From contig NZ_LVJW01000006.1 of assembly GCF_001708965.1 (NCBI RefSeq), positions 868,001 through 932,000 on the forward strand: a stretch of 64,000 nt of DNA. The letters are read 5' to 3'. The translations under genes were made by a program, and so were the position numbers. Below are positions 2,008 to 13,511 of this stretch, piece by piece. Under the pieces are notes generated by a model. It made no database searches, was not told the origin of the DNA, and was given only the letters and a program-made list of their open reading frames with translations. Positions within the stretch are counted from its first letter, which is position 1. The number at the start of each line of letters is the position of its first letter. This DNA comes from Candidatus Thiodiazotropha endoloripes (GTDB taxonomy: Bacteria; Pseudomonadota; Gammaproteobacteria; Chromatiales; Chromatiaceae).

Positions 2008-4882
2008 GAAAACTTCTCTCGTTCAACTCATCATTGTGCATCAGACAGGACCAGAGATCCTGCACCAGTGCCCGCTCTTCGGCAAGCTTCTCACTCTCCA
2101 CCAGCGCCGGCTGATCCTGAAGCGCACTGCGATGGTAGACCGCCCGCAGCACCTTGTAGATCCCCATCATGCGATCCGCGGCATGATTATCGAGCAATCC
2201 CAGTGTGGAAAGCGTCTCCAGCAGGCGAATGTTATCCGTCCAGACCAAGAGTTCTGGGTGGTGATGCGCCCACCGAAGGACCGTGTATTGAACCATAAAT
2301 TCTATATCGACGATACCGCCCCGGCCCTGCTTCAGGTCAAACAGCTCCTGGCTGCTTTTATCCAGGGCGGAGCGCATCTTCTCCCGCATCTCGACAACTT
2401 CACCACGCAGCTTCTCTCCATCCCGCTCGGCACCGATGATGCCACGCCTTATCTCATCGAAGCGTTCGGCCAGTCTGGCATCCCCGGCCACAACCCTGGC
2501 CCGCACCAGGGCCTGATGCTCCCAGGTCCAGGCGCTGTTCTTCTGGTAGGTCTCAAAGGTCTCCAGGGAGGCCACCATCATGCCCGAATTGCCATTCGGC
2601 CGCAGACGCATATCCACTTCATAGAGTATCCCCGATGGGGTTCGGGTGGTCATGATATGGATAATTCGTTGCGCCATGCGGGCATAGAAAACGTCCACTG
2701 AGACCGGTTTCCTGCCATTGGTATAGGCATTCCGATCGGCGCAGCCATGCAGGAACACCATATCCAGGTCAGAGCCGAAGCCCAATTCGATACCGCCCAG
2801 CTTGCCGTAACCGACCACCGCAAAGCCGCTCTCTCCCGGCTCGATTCCCGGCGGATGGCCATGTCGCCGCACCATCTCCTGGTAACTCAGCTGAATCACC
2901 TGATCGATGATGCTTTCAGCGATCCAGGTGAGGTAGTCACTGACCACCATCAATGGAATCTGATCGGCGATATCCGCCGCCGCCACTCTTAAGCGATTAC
3001 TCTGGGCAAACTGGCGTAACCGCTCCATCTGGCTCTCCAGGTCATCCGCATCGATACGGGACAACTGATCGCCCAGCTCCTCTGTGAGCGCTTCCCGCTT
3101 GAGGGGTGAATAGAGCCGGCGCGGATCGAGCAACTCATCCATCAGGATCGGATGACGGGTCAGCATGCTCGCCACCCAGGGACTGATACCGGCCAGCTTG
3201 ACCAGCTGGGAGAGGACCATGGGATTCTCAATCAACAGGGCGATATAGGCGGTTCGGCGGGCCACCGCCTCCAACAGATTGAGCACCCTGGGCAGGGCGG
3301 CGTCAGCACTCTCCGACTGACCGACCGCCTGCAGCAGCAGGGGCATCAACTGATCGAGACGCTCCCGGCCTTTGCTGCTCAACTGACGGCAGGCATGGCT
3401 GTTGCGGAGATGGTTCAACAGGTGCAGTGCCTGATCCGGTGCCCTGAATCCGTACTGGTGAAGTACCGATTCAGCCTGCTCATCATCCAGTAGATCATTC
3501 CACAGCGCGACAAATGGCTGGCTCTGTTGATCCGCTTCTGCCTGCGGGGCGGCGAAAACCATATCGAAATGGCCCTGCACCCGTTTGCGATGCTGTTCCA
3601 GCACCTCTGAGAAACCCGGCCAGTCGTCAAATCCCATGGAGCGAGCCAGACGCAGTCTCAGCAGCTCATCCGACGGCAGCAGATGGGTCTGCTTGTCCTG
3701 CCAGGCCTGAATTCGGTTTTCCACCAGGCGCAGAAACTTGTAGGCCTCGGTCAATTCCCGCACCGTATACTCCGGCAGCAGCGCTCGCTCCTTTAGCAGC
3801 TTCAGTACCGGGAGTATGGGGCGGGTCTGCAGGTCCTTGTCCCGTCCGCCCCGGATCAATTGAAAGGCCTGTCCAATGAACTCGATCTCACGGATTCCAC
3901 CAGGTCCAAGCTTGATGTTGGCCGCCATGCCTTTCTTGTGCAGCTCACTGCTGATCAGCTGTTTCATCTCGCGCAAGGACTCGATCGCGCTAAAGTCCAG
4001 ATAGCGGCGATAGACGAAGGGTCTGAGCATCCCCATCAGCTCATCGCCGGCATCCGTATCACCGGCCACGACCCTCGCCTTGATCATGGCGTAGCGCTCC
4101 CATTCACGGGCCTGGGAACCGTAGTAGCTCTCCATGGCGGAAAAGCTCATCGCCAGCGGTCCAACCGTACCAAACGGCCGCAAACGAGTATCCACCCGGA
4201 ATACGAAGCCGTCGGCGGTATGGTTGTCCAGTGCCTGAACAAGCTTCTGGCAGAGACGGATGAAAAACTGTTCATTGGTCAGACGTCGTGCACCATCGGT
4301 CTGGCCTGACTGGGGATAGGCGAAGATCAGATCGATATCGGAGGAGAGGTTGAGTTCCCGGGCACCCAGCTTACCCATACCCAACACCACCAGGGGCTGA
4401 GCCTCCCCCTGTTCGTTTCTCGGCACACCCATCTCGTTGCAACACCAGTCGTAGAGTTGCTGCAGGGCCAGTTCAATCGAGGCATCCGCCAGGGCGGAGA
4501 GATCCTCCAGGGTTTCAGCGAGATCGGCCAGTCCGGTCAGGTCACGCCAGATGATGCGCACCATCTGCAGACGGCGGAATTGGCGAAGCTGTTTACCCAG
4601 CGCTTGTTCATCACTGATTCCGGTGAGGCGATCAGCCAGACGGGAAGCCATCTCACCGGCCTCATATCGCCCCCCCAGCAGCCCCTGCTGATGTAGTTCC
4701 GGCAACAGTTCCGGAAAACGGTTGGCGACCTGGACGACAAAATCACTACCCTCCCAGACCGCCTTCAACTGAGTGATAAAGGCCCTGTCTTGCGGAGGAC
4801 TCAGTTCGGCATCCGCCAGCTTTTCACACCACTGATGCCACTGTTTTTCGTGCTCTTGATCTAGCTCCACGCCTCTTCTCAT
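1988..4882 (-). CDS. glnE: Bifunctional glutamine synthetase adenylyltransferase/adenylyl-removing enzyme
   Basis: 964 residues, close to the usual 940-980. GlnE adds AMP to, and removes it from, glutamine synthetase in response to PII and glutamine. Two nucleotidyltransferase modules are present. One is near residue 170 (GMGKLGARELNLSSDIDLIF) with its Asp-x-Asp pair intact; it corresponds to the N-terminal adenylyl-removing half. The second is near residue 690 (GYGKLGGIELGFGSDLDMVF), the adenylylating half. A GlnD PII-uridylyltransferase-like helical domain follows each. Both catalytic centres look functional. The gene overlaps ilvE downstream. Confidence 0.97.
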   Translation of the reverse strand: MRRGVELDQEHEKQWHQWCEKLADAELSPPQDRAFITQLKAVWEGSDFVVQVANRFPELLPELHQQGLLGGRYEAGEMASRLADRLTGISDEQALGKQLRQFRRLQMVRIIWRDLTGLADLAETLEDLSALADASIELALQQLYDWCCNEMGVPRNEQGEAQPLVVLGMGKLGARELNLSSDIDLIFAYPQSGQTDGARRLTNEQFFIRLCQKLVQALDNHTADGFVFRVDTRLRPFGTVGPLAMSFSAMESYYGSQAREWERYAMIKARVVAGDTDAGDELMGMLRPFVYRRYLDFSAIESLREMKQLISSELHKKGMAANIKLGPGGIREIEFIGQAFQLIRGGRDKDLQTRPILPVLKLLKERALLPEYTVRELTEAYKFLRLVENRIQAWQDKQTHLLPSDELLRLRLARSMGFDDWPGFSEVLEQHRKRVQGHFDMVFAAPQAEADQQSQPFVALWNDLLDDEQAESVLHQYGFRAPDQALHLLNHLRNSHACRQLSSKGRERLDQLMPLLLQAVGQSESADAALPRVLNLLEAVARRTAYIALLIENPMVLSQLVKLAGISPWVASMLTRHPILMDELLDPRRLYSPLKREALTEELGDQLSRIDADDLESQMERLRQFAQSNRLRVAAADIADQIPLMVVSDYLTWIAESIIDQVIQLSYQEMVRRHGHPPGIEPGESGFAVVGYGKLGGIELGFGSDLDMVFLHGCADRNAYTNGRKPVSVDVFYARMAQRIIHIMTTRTPSGILYEVDMRLRPNGNSGMMVASLETFETYQKNSAWTWEHQALVRARVVAGDARLAERFDEIRRGIIGAERDGEKLRGEVVEMREKMRSALDKSSQELFDLKQGRGGIVDIEFMVQYTVLRWAHHHPELLVWTDNIRLLETLSTLGLLDNHAADRMMGIYKVLRAVYHRSALQDQPALVESEKLAEERALVQDLWSCLMHNDELNERSFHDVDNG

Positions 4883-5105
4883 TAATCTAACTTATTTTTA
4901 TCAGGGCCTGAATAGAGCCTACCCCGGCATCTAAGAATGTGCTGCTCAGATTACACCGGCAGGGGAATTCTACCAACCTGTTCTTGCGTCAGCCGTAACA
5001 CAAACCGCCAGGCAGGTATCGTTGGGGATAACGATAATTGCCAAGCCGTAGCAAATCACATAGGGTTGCTCACTTCACAAATTGGCGCCAGAGACCAGAT
5101 CAGGC

Positions 5106-6029
5106 ATGATCAAACTGCAGCAAATAGACTATCACTACCCACACCACCCCCCGCTCTTCGAGGGGGTGAACCTGGCGATTGCCAAGGGTGCTCTATTTGG
5201 CTTGCTGGGTCCCAACGGCGCAGGCAAAACCACCCTGATCTCATTGATGACCGGACAACTGCAACCTACCGCCGGCGAGATCGAGATCGATGGGGAGAGC
5301 TACCCTGCGCAACGAACATCGATCCTGCAGAAGCTGGCTCACATACCCCAGGAATATGCCTTCTATCCTCAGTTGAGTGTGCTTGAGAATCTGCAGTTCT
5401 TCGCCAGTCTCTATCCGAAACAGTCTCACGACCGGGCCGGGCTGATCGAGCAGACCCTGGAGCTGACCGGATTGACAGAGCGGAGGGAAAAGCTGGCGAA
5501 ACACTTCTCCGGTGGTTTGAAACGGCGCCTCAACCTGGCGATCGGCCTGCTCAACAAACCGCAGCTGATCTTTCTCGATGAACCCACCGTGGGGATCGAT
5601 CCTCAGTCCCGCCATTTCATTCTGCAATCGATCCGGGAACTGAACAAGGCAGGCAGCACCATCGTCTATACCAGCCACTACATGGAAGAGATCGAACAGC
5701 TCTGCGACCAGGTGGCGATCATGGATCATGGCAGGATCCTGGTGCACGGCCCGTTACACCAGATCCTCAAGCGGGACCCTCAACTGATCGTTGAGCTGGG
5801 GCCGATAAGCGACCATAACCGATACACCCAGCTGGGCAATGCCCTGCAGGCAAAGGGCTTCAATCTCTCTGAACTGACGATCAGCGGTCATCCAAAAGAT
5901 CAGACAGAGATCAGCGAACTGCTGCAAATCCTGGCTTCACTCAACCTGTCTGTGATCAACCTTTCCTACGGAAAACATACCCTGGAAAAGCTGTTTTTCG
6001 AGCTGACCCAAACCCACTTGAGAGATTGA
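5106..6029 (+). CDS. ABC transporter ATP-binding protein of the lipid cassette
   Basis: About 307 residues from the ATG at 5106; an in-frame TTG at 5082 is possible but less likely. It has Walker [10 protein letters not shown] near residue 36, the signature FSGGLKRRL, Walker B LIFLDEPTVGID and a switch His in YTSHYMEEIEQL. The family is the CcmA/DrrA/NatA type of ABC-2 exporters, with a C-terminal extension typical of drug or lipid exporters. The permease gene begins 4 bases after its stop, and an acyl carrier protein and ketosynthase genes follow. The exporter most likely moves the lipid product of this cassette across the inner membrane. Confidence 0.92.
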   Translation: MIKLQQIDYHYPHHPPLFEGVNLAIAKGALFGLLGPNGAGKTTLISLMTGQLQPTAGEIEIDGESYPAQRTSILQKLAHIPQEYAFYPQLSVLENLQFFASLYPKQSHDRAGLIEQTLELTGLTERREKLAKHFSGGLKRRLNLAIGLLNKPQLIFLDEPTVGIDPQSRHFILQSIRELNKAGSTIVYTSHYMEEIEQLCDQVAIMDHGRILVHGPLHQILKRDPQLIVELGPISDHNRYTQLGNALQAKGFNLSELTISGHPKDQTEISELLQILASLNLSVINLSYGKHTLEKLFFELTQTHLRD

Positions 6030-6033
6030 AAGC

Positions 6034-7224
6034 ATGCTGTTTGCGGTGATCAAAAAAGAGCTGTTACTGGTATCCCGTGATATCCATGCCCTGCTGGTGC
6101 TGTTCCTGCTGCCGATCGTATTCATTCTGATCATGTCCCTGGCACTGCAGGACCGGATGAGTGGCGAATCCAAGGACCGCCCCGCAGTGGGCCTGTGGAT
6201 GGCAGCCGACAACCGCCTCAACGGTGAGCTGAGCCAACACTTCCAACAACTTGAAGGGGTTCGGGTTGAAAACTTCGAAAGCCCGGCCGAGTTGACCCGT
6301 GCCCTGCAACAGGGAGAGATCATCGGCGGCGTCATGCTACCCGCCCGTTTCGAGAAGATCATCCAATCCCCAGTGACCGAGCACAGCGAAAAGCTGCGGG
6401 TCCTCTATGCCGCCACTCTCCCCGGTTCAATGCGTCGATCGATCCTGGGTGCGGTGCGGCAGGCCCTCGGCGCCTATCAGGTCAATCAGCTGTTCAAACA
6501 TGACGACCTCAGTGAATCAGAACGCCAGCAGCGGGTCGACCATCTGCTGGGTAGATCCCTGGTGGTCACAGAGACCTATGGCACCGAGAAGGAATCCCAG
6601 CCCAATTCAGTTCAGCAGAGTGTTCCCGCGTGGCTGATATTTGCCATGTTTTTTGTGGTGCTGCCGATCTCGACAACCCTGTTGACGGAACGGCAGCAAG
6701 GCACCCTGCATCGCCTGCAGACCCTGCCGGTACCCCGCAGCTACCTGCTGATCGGCAAGCTGATACCCTATCTGGGGATCAACCTGATTCAGGCGGCACT
6801 GATGCTGCTGATCGGCATCCATCTGGTGCCGCTGCTGACCGGTGAGGGACTGCAACTCAACGGGCAGAGTTGGTTGCTGCTGCCGCTGATCGTCGCCACC
6901 AGCCTGTCGGCGATCAGTTTCGCCCTGCTGATCGCCACCCAGGCCAAGACCACTGAGCAAGCCACCACCCTGGGCGGAATCAGTAACCTTATTCTGGCCG
7001 CCATTGGTGGTATCATGGTGCCGACTTTTGTAATGCCTGAACTGATGCAGCAGATCGCCGCCCTGTCACCCATGAACTGGGCGCTGGAAGGCTTCTTCTC
7101 CATCCTGTTGAGACAAGGTGGATGGGCCATGGCCGGGCCCGAGATTCTCAAGTTGCTGGCATTCTCCGGCTGTTTGTTTTTACTTTCACTCCATTCATAT
7201 AAAGGCCTGACGGAAATCAAATAA
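6034..7224 (+). CDS. ABC-2 type transporter permease of the lipid cassette
   Basis: 396 residues. One N-terminal membrane helix (about 20-40, LLVLFLLPIVFILIMSLAL), a large extracytoplasmic domain to about residue 190, then five further hydrophobic segments from WLIFAMFFVVLPIST to LLAFSGCLFLLSLHS. This is the ABC-2 membrane layout of YhhJ/DrrB-like exporters; the LTERQQGTLHRLQTLPV coupling helix is typical. It pairs with the ATPase encoded 4 bases upstream. Its last base overlaps the first base of the acyl carrier protein gene, which ties export to the biosynthetic genes. Confidence 0.9.
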   Translation: MLFAVIKKELLLVSRDIHALLVLFLLPIVFILIMSLALQDRMSGESKDRPAVGLWMAADNRLNGELSQHFQQLEGVRVENFESPAELTRALQQGEIIGGVMLPARFEKIIQSPVTEHSEKLRVLYAATLPGSMRRSILGAVRQALGAYQVNQLFKHDDLSESERQQRVDHLLGRSLVVTETYGTEKESQPNSVQQSVPAWLIFAMFFVVLPISTTLLTERQQGTLHRLQTLPVPRSYLLIGKLIPYLGINLIQAALMLLIGIHLVPLLTGEGLQLNGQSWLLLPLIVATSLSAISFALLIATQAKTTEQATTLGGISNLILAAIGGIMVPTFVMPELMQQIAALSPMNWALEGFFSILLRQGGWAMAGPEILKLLAFSGCLFLLSLHSYKGLTEIK

Positions 7225-7493
7225 TGAAAGGTTCAACGGATACACAGTTCAAATTGGAACTCAAAAAGATGATCGTTGACGAATGCCGGTTAGATGATTT
7301 CGATCCTCAGGATATCAAGGATGACGAATATCTGGCCGGGCCGGAGGCTCGCTTTGGACTCGATTCAATCGATATGCTTCAAGTCATAGTCACAATCAAA
7401 AACCGTTACGGCGTACACATCCAGAATGACGCCGAATCAAGAGAGATTCTAGCCACCATCAACAACCTGGCGGACCATTTGCGTCCAGAGTAA
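7224..7493 (+). CDS. Acyl carrier protein (phosphopantetheine-binding)
   Basis: 89 residues. The phosphopantetheine attachment motif FGLDSIDMLQ gives Ser48 as the modified residue. The protein is acidic, with three to four helices predicted as in ACPs. It would carry the growing or finished acyl chain for the ketosynthases that follow. It starts inside the stop of the permease gene and ends 4 bases before the ketosynthase ATG. It is divergent enough from housekeeping AcpP to be regarded as a dedicated carrier. Confidence 0.92.
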   Translation: MKGSTDTQFKLELKKMIVDECRLDDFDPQDIKDDEYLAGPEARFGLDSIDMLQVIVTIKNRYGVHIQNDAESREILATINNLADHLRPE

Positions 7494-7497
7494 GGAG

Positions 7498-8646
7498 ATG
7501 GAATCAAACAAGCTTCCCATCATAGGATATGCCTGCGCATCCCACCTCGGCGAATCACTGAGTAACTTGTCGGGCCAGAGTGGCGCAACGGGGCGATTCG
7601 GACCGCCCAGGCTGCAACTTGATTCCACAGCACTGCAACTGCCCTACTATTCGATCGACGACCGGTTTAACGAACTGGAGCGAACCGAACGCATCCTCTT
7701 CGAGGTGATCGAAAAGGCTTTGCAGAGAAGTCAATTGAGCCCTGCCGAGATCAGACGGACCGGACTCTTTATCGGTTCCTCCTCTTACGATCTGCGCGAC
7801 AGTGAAATCGTTTACCAGCAGAAGCTTGAGGCAGGGGATCCATCGGCTGTACCGATGCCCTTTACCGGCTACAACCGACTCGGGGAATCGATCTGCCGGA
7901 AGTTTGATATCGACAGCGAACCATTCAATATCAACTCGGCCTGCACCTCCAGTGCTAATGCCCTGCTGTTGGCCCATAGCATGATCCGGCAGGGTCACTA
8001 TGAACATGCGCTGGTAGTGGGTATCGAACTCTACAACGAGACCACCATCAACGGTTTCGCCGGATTGCAGCTGATTGCCGAACAACGTATTGCCCCTTTC
8101 GATAAATCCCGCGACGGCATCATCCTCGGTGAATCCTGTTCCGCCGTGATCATCGGCACCCGCAGAAAAACAGCACCCTCCCTGATGCTCTGCGGTGGTG
8201 GCAGCTGTTTTGACCCATACAGTATCACCACGTCGAATCCGGATGGCTCGACGATTACCCAGACTCTGGAAAATGCGCTGCGAAATACCGCGATCGACAA
8301 GTCCGAGGTAGTGGCGATCAAAACCCACGGCACAGCGACCTATATGAACGATATTTCCGAGTCGAAGGGGATAATCACCGCCTTTCCCGAGGAGACACCA
8401 CCAATCACTGCCATCAAACCCTATGTCGGACACACCCTGGGTGCATGTGGCACATTGGAACTGATTCTGTTTGCCGAGGCGCTCGAACAGGGGTATGTAC
8501 CCAAAACACCCAATTTCGAAACCCCCGACCCGGATCTGCCTATCATTCCACTGAATGAGGAGATTGATGCCAGGGATGGTGTCTATCTACTCAACTATTT
8601 CGGATTCGGCGGTAGCAATACCGTCGTCGTAGTGGACAAGGTCTAA
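7498..8646 (+). CDS. Beta-ketoacyl synthase (FabF/KAS II-like thiolase fold)
   Basis: 382 residues, with an intact Cys-His-His triad: Cys149 in NSACTSSAN, His277 in KTHGTATYMND and His312 in KPYVGHTLGACG. It should perform decarboxylative Claisen condensation of an acyl primer with malonyl-ACP. It is slightly shorter than FabF (about 410) and closer to ketosynthases of aryl polyene and related lipid clusters. The ribosome site AAGGAG sits unusually close to the ATG at 7498. The gene ends on the ATG of a second, truncated ketosynthase-like protein. The two may form a heterodimer like a KS and its chain-length factor. Confidence 0.92.
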   Translation: MESNKLPIIGYACASHLGESLSNLSGQSGATGRFGPPRLQLDSTALQLPYYSIDDRFNELERTERILFEVIEKALQRSQLSPAEIRRTGLFIGSSSYDLRDSEIVYQQKLEAGDPSAVPMPFTGYNRLGESICRKFDIDSEPFNINSACTSSANALLLAHSMIRQGHYEHALVVGIELYNETTINGFAGLQLIAEQRIAPFDKSRDGIILGESCSAVIIGTRRKTAPSLMLCGGGSCFDPYSITTSNPDGSTITQTLENALRNTAIDKSEVVAIKTHGTATYMNDISESKGIITAFPEETPPITAIKPYVGHTLGACGTLELILFAEALEQGYVPKTPNFETPDPDLPIIPLNEEIDARDGVYLLNYFGFGGSNTVVVVDKV

Positions 8647-9515
8647 TGGAATTGAACCTCTCTCTATTTGCCTATGGCGGCTACAGCCATACCGTTGATC
8701 AGCAGCTACCCGGTCTGAACGAACCACTGAAGGCGGTATCCTTCAAGCTGCCCCGCCGCTCGGACCGGCTGACCCAGCTCTGTCTGCTGGGCCTGCACCA
8801 AACACCGGGCGGAGACAGCTTCAAGGCCGGGACTCATCTGGTGCTGGCCAGTGGTGACGCGAATCTCAACAGCACCATCCTCAACACTGAACAGATCTTT
8901 GACAGTGGCACCCTGCCCAACCCGATCGGCTTCATCAACACCGTCAACAACTCTACCGCCTACCATCTCTTTGTCAGCCTGGGTATCCAGGGCCAGGCGA
9001 TCAGTGTATCCAGGGACCACTGTTCACTGGAGGCCGGCCTGCAGATCGCGGCCAGCTTGCAACAGAGCGACCCATCACCCATCCTGCTGGGAACGGTCGA
9101 TGAGATACCCAATGATCCGCAACAGCACCGGCAACGTCTGAATATGTCGTCGACTAGACCACTGGCTGAAGGCAGCTTCTGGTTCCACTGCGGCCACCCG
9201 CAGCAGCAGGAGTCCCCGATTGCCACCATCGAATATTGCGGGCCGATGCGGGACGGCAGAGGCGTCGGGGATTTTTTACGTGAGCGTCAGATCAGCCACC
9301 ACCTGCTCGGGGATCTCCTGCGAGAATCAGCCTTGCGTGATATTCAACTGCCAGGAGAGCGGCTCGTTACCAAAAGCCAGGGGCACTACCTGACACAAAA
9401 CGCAGACTACCTGCAGCGTTGGCTTGATGGTGCCCGCCCCGGCGAACGCCTGGGGATGTTGAACGGTACCGAAGGCAGTGAACGACTGACCGTTACTTTG
9501 ATTCTAAAGCGCTGA
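8646..9515 (+). CDS. Degenerate ketosynthase N-terminal-like protein (chain-length-factor-like)
   Basis: 289 residues. The first 150 resemble the N-terminal half of a ketosynthase: NTVNNSTAYHLFVSLGIQGQ, then VSRDHCSLEAGLQIA, where Cys126 falls near the nucleophile position in an altered context, then ILLGTVDE. No HGTxT or GHTxGA histidine motifs follow, so it cannot be a complete condensing enzyme. It most resembles the truncated 'beta-ketoacyl synthase chain length factor' proteins of aryl polyene-type clusters. I infer that it is a non-catalytic partner of the neighbouring KS, setting chain length. Its 3' end overlaps the convergent BtrH-like gene by 23 bases. Confidence 0.65.
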   Translation: MELNLSLFAYGGYSHTVDQQLPGLNEPLKAVSFKLPRRSDRLTQLCLLGLHQTPGGDSFKAGTHLVLASGDANLNSTILNTEQIFDSGTLPNPIGFINTVNNSTAYHLFVSLGIQGQAISVSRDHCSLEAGLQIAASLQQSDPSPILLGTVDEIPNDPQQHRQRLNMSSTRPLAEGSFWFHCGHPQQQESPIATIEYCGPMRDGRGVGDFLRERQISHHLLGDLLRESALRDIQLPGERLVTKSQGHYLTQNADYLQRWLDGARPGERLGMLNGTEGSERLTVTLILKR

Positions 9516-10494
9516 GCCGGGCAAACAGCGCTCCTTCGCGCAGGGCGATCTTATCCAGCTGGTCGGCAATTGAGTCAAAGGTGTCATCATAGCGGGCTTT
9601 GCTCTTGCGCGCGCACATCAGGGCAAACAGACGCCACTCATCACCGATCGACGACATCTCATCCGCCGCTTCAGCCAACTGATCCGATGCCAGTAACTCC
9701 GCCGCCTCCTGCAGAAATGCGGCATACATGAAGCGAAAGCCTCCACCGCCGGTGCCGATCTCTTCCTGCATACGCACAATATGGCCGAGATAGAGATGGG
9801 CGTAACGCGTCTCTGCATCGACCAGTTTGCGGATATTTCCAGCCACCCGTTGTATCCCCTTCGACCCGGCGATGGGTACCGGACTTCGCTTGCCATTGAT
9901 CTTGGCGGTGAAGCGGATCGCCTTAGGCAGCACTGTTTTGAAATCGATTTCCGCCGGTACCTCGGCCGGGTAGTAGAGCAGACCTTTGGGAGCCAATGCG
10001 CCTTTGGCAAAACGCGCCTTGGTCAGACTCTGCCGGTCCACTGTCACCAGATGGGAGAACACCGGATCACTGACCTGGAAGGCCTCCCCCTCGCGACCGT
10101 AGACAAGCAGATTGTGCGCATTGAAATGGAAGCGCATATCCTCGGGAAAATAGGGCAGAAAGAAGACCGAGGTCTGCAATCCGACAATCCGCCCATCATC
10201 CAACAGCCGGTCAAGTGCAGCTTCCCCTTGAGCCGGTTTGCGGAATTTCTGAAATGTCATCTTCAGTCCACCGATCCGCCTGGAGAGTGCCCGGATGATC
10301 ATCCGCGGAGGGGTTCGATAGGCGATCAACGGCATACCGTTGATCTTTACCATAGGGATATAGGCATAGGTCAGACCGCTTGCCAGACCGAAGGCCATCG
10401 GTTCAGACACCTCCAATCCATGATAGCGAAGCATGGCGGACATAACCCCTGTCTCACAATGCGCCGCATGCCGGTGCTCGAGTGGTTTATTCAT
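9493..10494 (-). CDS. BtrH N-terminal domain acyltransferase-like protein
   Basis: 333 residues. The opening HRHAAHCETGVMSAMLRYHGL and the FGLASGLTYAYI stretch match the BtrH N-terminal family. BtrH transfers an acyl group from an ACP to an aminoglycoside in butirosin synthesis. Probable papain-like residues are Cys13 (HCETG), the His of FNAHNLLVYG and the Asp of FQVSDPVF. The C-terminal helical part resembles the DUF4872 region that usually follows this domain. In this cassette it could move the acyl product from the ACP to an acceptor or to the aromatic head group. Substrate and acceptor are unknown. Its start overlaps the preceding 135-residue gene by 8 bases. Confidence 0.75.
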   Translation of the reverse strand: MNKPLEHRHAAHCETGVMSAMLRYHGLEVSEPMAFGLASGLTYAYIPMVKINGMPLIAYRTPPRMIIRALSRRIGGLKMTFQKFRKPAQGEAALDRLLDDGRIVGLQTSVFFLPYFPEDMRFHFNAHNLLVYGREGEAFQVSDPVFSHLVTVDRQSLTKARFAKGALAPKGLLYYPAEVPAEIDFKTVLPKAIRFTAKINGKRSPVPIAGSKGIQRVAGNIRKLVDAETRYAHLYLGHIVRMQEEIGTGGGGFRFMYAAFLQEAAELLASDQLAEAADEMSSIGDEWRLFALMCARKSKARYDDTFDSIADQLDKIALREGALFARLSALESK

Positions 10495-10894
10495 ACGTTT
10501 CAGGAAGTTGTTTTAATGTATCTCGATCGATGCCCAGTACTTCGGCATAGCCGTCCAGCTTCTCCTCCGAGAGCCTGGCGAACCTTTGTGGTGAAAAGTC
10601 CCGTTTCACCATCCATTGAAAACGTCCCATCGCCTGGGCCAGCATCGGCAGGTCCATACGCTGATTGTACATATGAAACTCAAGCGCCGAGGTCTCTCCC
10701 TGCCTGGCCCGCTGATAGGCATCCAGGGTCAGCCGTTTGATCTCATCCAGCGCCTGGCCGAGCACGATCTCTTCGACCTCCCAGCCGTTGGTCTCGGACG
10801 ACTCGATCCTGCCGGTGTCCGATTCCGCATAGATCACCTTGGTCTCTCCCCCCAGGGACCCTGCCTTATCCTGTGGAATGTCTTTGATCTTCAT
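10487..10894 (-). CDS. Conserved-looking hypothetical protein of the lipid cassette
   Basis: 135 residues of no family I recognise. It is soluble and acidic, with a probable helical middle (EIVLGQALDEIKRLTLDAYQ), a FHMYNQRMDLPMLAQAMGRF segment and a C-terminal SEEKLDGYAEVLGIDRDTL stretch. The last resembles a short helical or tetratricopeptide-like end, but no motif is decisive. It has no signal peptide, no membrane segment and no Cys. The gene overlaps the KAS III gene upstream by 4 bases and the BtrH-like gene downstream by 8, so it is translationally coupled to both. It very likely acts in the same pathway, as an adaptor or small enzyme. Confidence 0.75.
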   Translation of the reverse strand: MKIKDIPQDKAGSLGGETKVIYAESDTGRIESSETNGWEVEEIVLGQALDEIKRLTLDAYQRARQGETSALEFHMYNQRMDLPMLAQAMGRFQWMVKRDFSPQRFARLSEEKLDGYAEVLGIDRDTLKQLPETYE

Positions 10895-12039
10895 ACCACG
10901 CTCAATAACATGAATGAACTGGAGAAGCGTCCACTCTCCGGGACAAAACAGAGCAACCGCTCACCGCTTTTCAACTGTCCGGATTTTAGCAGTTCATCCA
11001 GCATGATGTAGATCGATGCGGAGCCGGTATTGCCCCGGTTGGTCAGGTTGGTGAACCAGCGCTCACGGGGAATCTCGAAATCGAGCTCCACCAGCGCCTC
11101 ATAGACCTTCTCATCAAAGTACATGGAAGAGATATGGGGCAGAAAATAGTCCACCTGATCAGCCTGCAGGCCGGTTTTGGCGATCACCCGTTTCAGGGTC
11201 TCCTTGACCGCCATGGGTACGATATTCTCATTCAGCAGCTTGACGTCCTGTTTGATGCTCATCACCGAATGATCGATCAATCCCTGCTGGGTGTAGAGCT
11301 TCCAGCTCTCCAGACTGCCATCCTCCAGCTTTTCCGCACCTGAGTACATACAGGTCTCAAGCTCGTTCGCATAGGAGTAGATCTCAATCCACTCAATCTC
11401 CACTACCGGCTGTTCCGCCCGCTGGTTGGGTTCGCTCTCGACACGAAAGGCACCGGCACCATCAGACAGCATCCAGCGTAGAAAATCTTTCTCAAAGGCA
11501 ATTTCCGGGTTCTTCTTCAGGTTTTCGATTTTGTACTTCGACTCACCTTCGAAGTGGCTGGCCCGCAACACCGGTGAAACCAGTTCCGAACCGGTGGAGA
11601 CCGCCTGTTTGAACTCGCCGCATTTCACCGCCAGATAGGCATATTTCAGTGCTGCTGCGCCACTCAGACAGATTCCGGATGTGGAGATCACCTCGCAACA
11701 CTGATTCCCCAGCTCCCCATGCACCATCAAGCCATGACCGGGCATCACCTGATCCGGAATGGAGGTGCCGGAGACCAGACACTGCATCTGATTGAGCTCG
11801 GCCTCGGAGGCAAACAGCCGCCGCACACAGAGCGCTGTCATCTCGGCATTGCTGTGGCTCAGCTCGCCACTCTCCGGATCGATTGCATAATAGCGCTGTT
11901 TGATCCCGTTACTGCGCAATACCAGACGCTTGGCACGGGAGGGTTTACCCCCCACCATGCCCAGTACATCCTCGATCTGCTCATTCTCAACAGGTTGGTT
12001 CGGCAGAAAAGCCGATGTATTGGTTATGTATGCCCTCAT
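10891..12039 (-). CDS. Beta-ketoacyl-ACP synthase III (DarB-like)
   Basis: 382 residues, longer than housekeeping FabH (about 317) and similar to DarB-type synthases. The triad is complete: Cys124 in STSGICLSGAAA, His302 in YFLPHISSMYF and Asn337 in NRGNTGSAS. DarB-type enzymes supply or condense the beta-ketoacyl chains from which dialkylresorcinols are built. The gene overlaps the DarA-like gene upstream by 4 bases (ATGA) and the 135-residue gene downstream by 4. The DarA/DarB pairing is the main basis for assigning the cassette to resorcinol-type lipid synthesis. Confidence 0.9.
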   Translation of the reverse strand: MRAYITNTSAFLPNQPVENEQIEDVLGMVGGKPSRAKRLVLRSNGIKQRYYAIDPESGELSHSNAEMTALCVRRLFASEAELNQMQCLVSGTSIPDQVMPGHGLMVHGELGNQCCEVISTSGICLSGAAALKYAYLAVKCGEFKQAVSTGSELVSPVLRASHFEGESKYKIENLKKNPEIAFEKDFLRWMLSDGAGAFRVESEPNQRAEQPVVEIEWIEIYSYANELETCMYSGAEKLEDGSLESWKLYTQQGLIDHSVMSIKQDVKLLNENIVPMAVKETLKRVIAKTGLQADQVDYFLPHISSMYFDEKVYEALVELDFEIPRERWFTNLTNRGNTGSASIYIMLDELLKSGQLKSGERLLCFVPESGRFSSSFMLLSVV

Positions 12040-12989
12040 TTACCGCAACCGAATTCTTCCATGCGCTCACTCCCCGATCCGGAAGGCGCCTCAAAATATG
12101 TTTTAATCTGTTGGTGTCTTTGCTTCATCAGCGGCGCCAATAGCGCCTTCAGAAACATGCTCAGCGGCACCACGGTGACAATCATCAGAATCAGAAATAC
12201 CACGTAGACAGCCAACACAGGTGTCCGTTTGGAATCACCCTGTTTGCCGATCCTGCGTAACAACTTACCCCAAATCAGAAAGCTACGATAACCCACTTTT
12301 TCTGATTGAATTTGACTCACATCCGCTTCCACGGCCTGCAGGCCCCTCAGCATTGGGCCTTCGGTCTTCTCAGCATCCTCACCGAGCCCCTGCTCTATCG
12401 CCTGACCGAAGCGACAGCAGGCCTGGATATCCTGATCGGATACCCCGGCGGCCGGAAATCCCCAGAAGGGCTCCTTTTTACCTGTCCACAACCATCTTGG
12501 GGTGGTGATAAAGGAGGCCAGCAGAGAGCCCTGATCTGTCAGCACCACATTATCAATTAAACGGGCGCCACAGTCATCCAGCATGGCCTTCATCGTCTCT
12601 TGCGCCCGAGTCCACATGTTGCGGCAACCGATGACCGTGATCACCGGTTTACCGCTGAGTAACCGCTTAGCCTGTTCGCTCTGCAGAAAGCCGGTTATCG
12701 GCAGGGCCGGTGCCAGAAACCAGACCTGATAGGCCAGGATCACTAGATCCGCATCGTAATCTGTATCAATCTGCAACGGTTGCAACTCAGGAGCATCCAG
12801 ATAGACGCATTCGGGAAAAACATCCAAAAACCGGAAAAACGGCCAGGGAAACGGATAGGGATCCAACGGTTGGAGCGTCTCGGTTTTCAGCTCAATTCCG
12901 GTCGATTCCTGTAGCGGTGCACTGATCGACTGCACAATATTGGAGAGCTGACCGGTTTGCGAAAATTGAAGTACGAGGATCTTTTTCAT
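12036..12989 (-). CDS. Dialkylresorcinol condensing enzyme (DarA)-like, flavodoxin fold
   Basis: 317 residues. The N-terminus KKILVLQFSQTGQLSNIV is a flavodoxin-like strand and phosphate loop, followed by alternating strands and helices to about residue 200 (LVILAYQVWFLAPALP, VITVIGCRNMW). A hydrophobic segment near residues 260-290 (VYVVFLILMIVTVVPL and on) should anchor it to the inner membrane. From memory this layout matches proteins annotated as dialkylresorcinol condensing enzyme, DarA. It is first in a four-gene minus-strand operon with the KAS III. If the family link is right, it joins two acyl-derived chains into a 1,3-diketone or resorcinol ring. A plain flavodoxin-like oxidoreductase is the alternative. 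Confidence 0.75.
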   Translation of the reverse strand: MKKILVLQFSQTGQLSNIVQSISAPLQESTGIELKTETLQPLDPYPFPWPFFRFLDVFPECVYLDAPELQPLQIDTDYDADLVILAYQVWFLAPALPITGFLQSEQAKRLLSGKPVITVIGCRNMWTRAQETMKAMLDDCGARLIDNVVLTDQGSLLASFITTPRWLWTGKKEPFWGFPAAGVSDQDIQACCRFGQAIEQGLGEDAEKTEGPMLRGLQAVEADVSQIQSEKVGYRSFLIWGKLLRRIGKQGDSKRTPVLAVYVVFLILMIVTVVPLSMFLKALLAPLMKQRHQQIKTYFEAPSGSGSERMEEFGCGK

Positions 12990-13511
12990 ATCTGGATTGG
13001 TATCAGTCAGGCTCTCTCACCCGGAACGCTCATGGCGCGTTTCAATGCGCCAAATTCAAGGCGACAGCTCCCTTTTTGTTACCGGGCTACCCCATTCTCA
13101 GTCGGGTGTAATTCAACATGATCCAATTGTTCGGCCTGTTGGGCCCTGTTAACACGAATCCAATTGGCCCTAATACTAATCCGTTTGTTTGAAGCTGTCT
13201 CTCACCACACACAATTATGAGCAGCAGCAAACAGTTAACCATGCCTGGCCATACCATCAGGGGGAATTTTACCCACCCTCTGACGAAGGGAGCCCCTCGT
13301 TCTCTGCAAACCTCGCCTTGATCAGGCGCATGTCTGAAGCCCTGACTGGAGTAATTCAGTCGCCAGGTTGAAACATATGAAGGTGATGGAGACAGCTTCA
13401 GTCTGCCTATAGCGGGGGATTCTGTCAATTGAGCCGGGATCAGCTCAAAGGGGGGATGCCAGCTTCAACCAGCAGGAGATTGATACCCCGCTGGTTGAAG
13501 CCTGGGGTTGT
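12990..13511. other. Intergenic region upstream of the DarA-like operon
   Basis: About 520 bases with no supported gene. It should hold the promoter of the minus-strand lipid operon at its left edge. It contains one copy of the dispersed palindromic repeat at 13141-13171. Frames of 60-113 codons on either strand lack ribosome sites and family resemblance, and they run through the repeat. Confidence 0.6.
13141..13171. repeat. Dispersed palindromic repeat, copy A
   Basis: 31 bases with core GTTAACACGAATCCAAT, bounded by GGGCC and GGCCC arms that can pair. Related copies occur at 39115-39145, 42650-42679 and 54389-54419. All are intergenic. Confidence 0.75.

Follow-up and report, generated by a model that had tools for sequence, protein, structure and literature searches.

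What does a compact lipid cassette make in the genome of Candidatus Thiodiazotropha endoloripes, probably a sulfur-oxidising symbiont of lucinid clam gills? The cassette lies at positions 5106-12989 of the 64,000-nucleotide stretch of DNA analysed here (the window; contig NZ_LVJW01000006.1, 868001-932000), and an earlier reading made from the letters alone (the sequence-only reading) saw in it the source of an exported resorcinol-type or acylated lipid. We consider it very probable that the cassette builds the dialkylresorcinol (DAR) part of an aryl polyene (APE)-DAR ester pigment of the arcuflavin/flexirubin type and also sees to its esterification and export. We favor this reading because all nine kinds of gene in the cassette are also listed for the dar locus of Azoarcus sp. 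BH72 and its proteins score in the corresponding NCBIfam families; because the genome has its own polyene cluster, and the polyene marker co-occurs with the BtrH-type gene across a class and a genus and with DarD plus DarE in a set of named genomes; and because two Photorhabdus loci that carry only the bare DarA/DarB core (L119 and L128) belong to genomes that are likewise without the polyene marker.

The cassette is of a known type and is ordinary apart from its host. A flexirubin/arcuflavin-type pigment pathway would thereby be placed in a probable lucinid-clam symbiont. Our literature search returned nothing that pairs Thiodiazotropha with a polyene, and an earlier report of a pigment is possible.

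Gene content of the cassette

We confirmed nine open reading frames (ORFs) at 5106-12989, a plus-strand run of five and a minus-strand run of four that face each other. Same-strand neighbors overlap by 1 to 8 bases or are separated by 4-base gaps, and the two operons meet tail to tail with a 23-base overlap. The order and strands of the ORFs are those of the two convergent, tightly coupled operons that the sequence-only reading had described; its gene set was right, and its count of eight becomes nine once the ATPase and the permease of the exporter are counted apart.

The plus-strand operon opens with an ABC transporter ATPase (5106-6029; Pfam ABC_tran, 110 bits), for which a TTG upstream at 5082 is a possible alternative start, and an ABC-2 permease (6034-7224; ABC2_membrane_3, 138 bits). 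They are the counterparts of Azoarcus DarF and DarI. An acyl carrier protein (ACP; DarC counterpart) follows at 7224-7493 (PP-binding, 22.8 bits, cut-off 20.8), then a ketosynthase (KS; DarJ counterpart) at 7498-8646 with N- and C-terminal ketoacyl-synt domains and a full triad of Cys149, His277 and His312. The last gene, at 8646-9515 in the DarK position, encodes a degenerate ketosynthase resembling a chain-length factor (CLF); it has no Pfam match at E 0.1, and its profile matches 6kxd_B. The minus-strand operon comprises the DarA-like protein (12036-12989), recognized by homology and from an AlphaFold model to combine a flavodoxin-like N-terminal domain with long C-terminal helices; a KAS III of the StlD/DarB type (10891-12039; NF005293, 596 bits, cut-off 450), in which Pfam recognizes ACP_syn_III_C; a 135-residue DarD-like protein (10487-10894; NF053536, "DarG family," 151 bits, cut-off 70), without a Pfam match at E 0.1; and a BtrH-type acyltransferase (9493-10494; NF053550, 460 bits, cut-off 300), the Azoarcus darE counterpart. 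This last protein combines the Pfam domains BtrH_N and DUF4872, and its NCBIfam model is named "BtrH-related acyltransferase DarH." The Pfam and NCBIfam results agree with the assignments first made for the exporter, ACP, KS, BtrH-type protein and KAS III.

In Azoarcus sp. BH72, Table 1 of the paper on the dar locus (azo0283-0293) lists darA, darB, darD (conserved hypothetical), darE (BtrH-like), darF (ABC ATPase), darI (ABC permease), darC (ACP), darJ (KS) and darK (hypothetical) (PMC3949708). The likeness, judged from the published gene list, covers all nine kinds of gene. Gene order differs, and the cassette has no PilT/PHD pair such as the listed darH/darG. The sequence-only reading took the BtrH-type, exporter and 135-residue components to go beyond the known set, and this claim falls: the Azoarcus table already contains darE, darF/darI and darD (PMC3949708), and both the BtrH-type and the 135-residue proteins have NCBIfam models. 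The names clash between sources. NCBIfam's DarG and DarH appear to be darD and darE of PMC3949708, where darG and darH are the PHD/PilT pair inside the Azoarcus locus.

Conservation of the cassette among relatives

We compared the loci of the best 80 of 317 confirmed DarB relatives, 52 of which are at least 17.5 kb long. All nine genes are present in 43 of the 52 long loci, darA, darB, darD and darE together in 47, and darA and darB in 50. Over all 80 loci, the full set occurs in 48 and the four-gene set in 71. Individually, the ATPase and the permease genes are each found in 46 of the long loci and the gene for the 135-residue protein in 47. Given that so many long loci hold all nine genes, the organization is not due to chance, and the expectation that these genes would stay together in other genomes is borne out.

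The convergent arrangement recurs in Thiodiazotropha, several Pseudomonas, Caulobacter and other loci, and a single-strand run is found in Dechloromonas, Azoarcus, Vibrio, Aliivibrio and Helicobacteraceae loci. Four Azoarcus metagenome-assembled genomes (MAGs; L094, L096, L121 and L133) have matches to DarA, DarB, DarD, DarE, the exporter, ACP and KS, the KS match of L096 lying below the threshold used for counting. DarA and DarB also occur without the rest nearby, in Photorhabdus (L119 and L128), in L086, and in the shorter locus of Pseudomonas sp. NFIX28 (L098). In the two Photorhabdus loci and L098, unlike the window cassette, DarA/DarB stand without an adjacent DarD, DarE, exporter or KS pair; near the DarA/DarB genes of L086 there is no match to DarD, DarE or the exporter. 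Neither Photorhabdus genome has a match to the polyene marker.

Predicted functional residues are highly conserved in the window and the named loci. The DarB triad (Cys124, His302, Asn337) is kept in 81/81 sequences, Cys13, His127 and Asp143 of the BtrH-type protein in 69/69, and the attachment residue Ser48 of the ACP in 53/53. DarB matches the StlD structure 5gk0 with 460 bits. Among the best 80 of the 317 relatives, the nearest DarB proteins (98 to 99% identical) come from Candidatus Thiodiazotropha records, a "Chromatiales" MAG and a Stewartia floridana symbiont. Families, residues and conservation support a resorcinol cassette of the DarA/DarB type with a KS and its degenerate partner, a BtrH-type acyltransferase and an exporter, much as first described.

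Neither Pfam nor NCBIfam had a model that matched the DarA-like protein at E 0.1. It is 47 to 52% identical to the proteins in the DarA position of nine compared loci outside Thiodiazotropha (Dechloromonas hortensis, Vibrio galatheae, Pseudomonas peli, Pseudomonas sp. NFIX28, Photorhabdus khanii, Caulobacter sp. SLTY, Pseudoalteromonas sp. A601, Aliivibrio sp. S4MY1 and an Azoarcus MAG), and a DarA-profile match shares the locus with DarB in 77 of the 80 named loci. Homology and position clearly point to membership of the DarA family, as had been proposed. In the AlphaFold model (pLDDT 91.3, pTM 0.90), residues 1-169 form five strands alternating with helices, followed by long C-terminal helices. 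The best match of the DarA profile to solved structures is 2mwm, a "putative trp repressor binding protein" (E 0.0014), from a family that we take to be flavodoxin-like; the "putative flavoprotein" 4ici ranks lower (E 0.44). Both the predicted order of strands and helices and this weak profile match fit a flavodoxin-like fold, and in an alignment of relatives the C-terminal helices look membrane-associated. Profile searches of the Protein Data Bank with alignments of the 135-residue and BtrH-type proteins had as their best matches the "Cake" and "sc-apCC-4" chains (E 0.0009 and 0.001), which we take to be designed proteins; other matches were weaker.

A polyene cluster elsewhere in the genome

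We searched the genome of the symbiont with PF13723, a chain-length-factor family. It matched in one place, C3:1033597, within a compact polyene cluster (C3:1031598-1042364) on a contig other than that of the cassette. This result led us to reject an earlier candidate, a resorcinol cassette standing as an orphan with no polyene partner in the genome. The cluster encodes a glycosyltransferase, a ketoreductase, a 150-residue protein, a CLF, a KS, an AMP-binding protein, a membrane protein (without an NCBIfam match), an MMPL exporter, a LolA-like protein, an acyltransferase, a FabA-like dehydratase and an ACP. We propose that the 150-residue protein is a second dehydratase, despite the absence of a Pfam match. 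The KS scores 545 bits against NF006618 (cut-off 407) and the ACP 109 bits against NF006617 (cut-off 70). In a likeness to aryl polyene (Ape) clusters, the best structure matches of the KS and CLF are chains of 6qsp and 7f28, which we take to be ApeO-ApeC. Ape clusters differ in the second KS, ApeR, described for them (PMC8358021); the C3 cluster has a single KS/CLF pair, with no second KS seen.

The sequence-only reading noted that the cassette lacks reductase and dehydratase genes and supposed that it takes ready-made acyl chains. The observation stands, since Pfam and NCBIfam scans found neither kind of gene among the nine; the absence alone, however, does not point to ready-made chains. 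That supposition is weakened because a ketoreductase, FabA-like dehydratase, KS/CLF, AMP-ligase and ACP are encoded together in the polyene cluster elsewhere in the genome, and because the polyene marker accompanies every BtrH-type gene above the cut-off in the class sample described below.

The resorcinol of Azoarcus is reported to be joined to a xanthomonadin-like polyene to give arcuflavin, the polyene being made by two gene clusters that are not linked to each other (PMC3949708). Of the four classes of aryl polyenes described so far, hybrid APE-DAR compounds such as arcuflavin and flexirubin are counted as one (PMC10165715). Both in Azoarcus and in Thiodiazotropha, polyene genes lie apart from the dar locus. 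XanB2-type and halogenase genes, reported for the Azoarcus polyene clusters, were not seen in the C3 cluster, and PF21168, presumably a proxy for XanB2-type chorismatase, had no match in the genome and none in the control genomes either. A UbiC-type chorismate lyase is encoded far from the C3 cluster. Flexirubin of Chitinophaga and Flavobacterium is likewise an ester of an aryl polyene acid with a DAR, involving DarA/DarB and, by its NCBIfam name, a DarG-family protein. Its starter is described as coming from tyrosine via an ammonia-lyase (PMC3992019). In contrast, PF00221 has no match in the Thiodiazotropha genome (5 of 14 control genomes were matched), and the 135-residue protein falls below the cut-off of NF053545, flexirubin_DarG (110 versus 170 bits). 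Flexirubin proper was rejected for want of the ammonia-lyase.

Co-occurrence of the BtrH-type gene and the polyene marker

To describe the association, we used PF13723 as the polyene marker and counted BtrH-type proteins above the family cut-off. A sample of 369 genomes of the class contains 18 with the BtrH-type gene and 87 with the marker; not one of the 18 is without the marker (hypergeometric P = 1.2e-12, a test that treats genomes as independent; the 18 genomes span 17 families). One further genome with a fragmentary BtrH-type match (G101, of the same genus as G318) was left out of the 18. Within the genus, 7 of 22 genomes have the BtrH-type gene and 11 the marker, with an overlap of 7/7. 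Among the named genomes (49 of the 80 named loci), the marker is present in 40 of the 41 that have both DarD and DarE and in 4 of the 8 that are without one or the other. The three counts overlap, several genomes being identical by their match coordinates.

The BtrH-type gene and the marker are no more than 30 kb apart on one contig in 7 of the 17 other class genomes. At L070, whose DarB is 73% identical, the 6 kb upstream of darA contain matches to polyene genes. These comparative data suggest that the BtrH-type protein, DarD and the exporter go with a polyene partner, and that DarA/DarB also occur as a bare resorcinol core.

The BtrH-type gene is absent from four of the 22 genus genomes that have the polyene marker (G380, G381, G382 and G385). 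Since seven others have both, related symbionts may differ in pigment type. In the class sample, G350, a genome of the same genus, has neither.

The likely product and its alternatives

What the product is, that the BtrH-type protein forms the ester, and in which direction export runs are all inferred. By what is known for the family, DarB would join two fatty-acid-derived thioesters and cyclise them, and the flavodoxin-like DarA would aromatise the ring to a 2,5-dialkylresorcinol. The separate C3 cluster would assemble the polyene acid on its ACP, and the BtrH-type enzyme, with its Cys-His-Asp residues, would shift the polyenoyl chain from the ACP to a phenol of the resorcinol. We propose this esterification because of the chemistry that BtrH is presumed to perform and because of the co-occurrence with the polyene marker. 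The DarF/DarI exporter would then extract the product from the inner membrane, and MMPL and LolA-like proteins of the polyene cluster may help to place it in the outer membrane. A literature search on BtrH and resorcinol turned up only the Azoarcus paper (PMC3949708), so the ester-forming step looks unassigned in the literature searched and is directly testable.

A free or fatty-acylated dialkylresorcinol lipid could instead be made and exported independently of any polyene, which is close to what the sequence-only reading had in mind. The cassette itself contains no polyene genes and has its own ACP, KS and exporter, and the DarA/DarB core, whose DarB matches the StlD structure, is shared with organisms that make other products. 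Photorhabdus, with DarA and StlD, is a stilbene maker. In Pseudomonas chlororaphis (darABC), the product is a free resorcinol, HPR, which is reported to depend on darA and darB, with less of it made by a darC mutant (PMC6403133). We nevertheless consider a polyene-independent lipid improbable: the BtrH-type gene and the marker occur together in 18/18 genomes of the class and 7/7 of the genus, and the Photorhabdus loci have DarA/DarB without DarD, DarE, exporter or KS. The likely product in broader terms, an acylated resorcinol, is upheld.

Several observations weigh against a polyene ester all the same. The hypergeometric P value takes no account of relatedness, and at a looser threshold (E 0.001), the marker accompanies the BtrH-type gene in 19 of 21 genomes, the two without it being the weak matches G013 and G138, whose loci have no DarA, DarB or DarD match. 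One locus, L087, has the cassette without a marker in 1.5 Mb of genome. Three genomes (G104, G198, which is that of L086, and G221) have DarB above the cut-off and the polyene marker with no BtrH-type match, which shows that both halves can exist in a genome without that protein; these genomes may use another ester-forming enzyme or make a different product. The window DarB scores 521 bits against the narrower model NF053539, "dialkylresorcinol DarB," below its cut-off of 550, and no aryl-starter gene was recognised in the C3 cluster. With these points counted, the APE-DAR ester remains the reading that we favor.

The DarJ/DarK ketosynthase pair

Two proposals for the step carried out by DarJ, DarK and DarC are compatible with an APE-DAR ester. 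DarJ keeps Cys149 and His312 in 51/51 sequences of the window and the named loci. The decarboxylation residue His277 is His in 34 and Gln in 17 of them; the window protein has His and hence the full triad that had been claimed for it. For the His/Gln change, we examined L049, L070, L079, L082 and L085 alongside. On a tree of 63 rows, made by a quick method and with several rows on long branches, the state changes at least three times, and one of these changes falls in L070, which is sister to the Thiodiazotropha group. Against the NCBIfam model "acyltransferase subunit AmcF," DarJ scores 157 bits, below the cut-off of 325. Its best structure match is 9s5h_B, and 7f28 and 6kxd, which we take to be KS/CLF pairs, are among the seven matches listed.

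DarK is without the two ketosynthase His motifs in the alignment, in agreement with its earlier description as a degenerate partner. At the aligned active-site position it carries a Cys, as do only 7 of 23 sequences, the window included; a replacement of this Cys by Asn, considered at one point, was dropped because the alignment places the nonconserved Cys there. The best match of the DarK profile is 6kxd_B (E 0.002), presumably from the ishigamide KS-CLF pair. DarK aligns to approximately residues 62-209 of DarJ (hhalign probability 71%, E 3.6e-5), and its pairwise match to the polyene CLF of the same genome is weak (24.6% identity over 134 residues, E 6e-4).

DarJ/DarK/DarC might build an alkyl precursor for DarB, as a small dedicated elongation step. 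This is a real possibility, toward which we lean a little less than away from it. The full triad of the window DarJ, the pairing of the ACP gene with the KS genes, and the presumed KS/CLF structures among the matches of both proteins speak for it; there is no adjoining reductase, the Pseudomonas darC mutant is reported to still yield HPR in reduced amount (PMC6403133), and the decarboxylation His is Gln in a third of the sequences (17/51). Alternatively, DarJ/DarK with DarC, and not the BtrH-type protein, may transfer the acyl chain, in which case a KS/CLF heterodimer would have shifted to acyl transfer (of a polyenoyl chain between ACPs or onto the resorcinol) and the His-to-Gln change would mark the shift. 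The invariant Cys and second His, the recurrent loss of the decarboxylation His over at least three changes on the tree, and the AmcF score are consistent with such a shift. We find it unlikely, as the window DarJ retains its full triad and as L071 has DarA, DarB, DarD, DarE and the exporter without DarJ, DarK and DarC at the locus (to which the search for J/K copies was confined), in a genome with the polyene marker.

Surroundings of the cassette

Scans of positions 4800-13500 for promoters and terminators gave 5 and 8 candidates, compared with 4.9 and 7.1 in shuffled sequences. The cassette is flanked by genes that we read as glnE and a chemotaxis receptor, with groEL nearby. The same flanking genes are found at L066, L068 and L073 and, in part, at L065 and L069.

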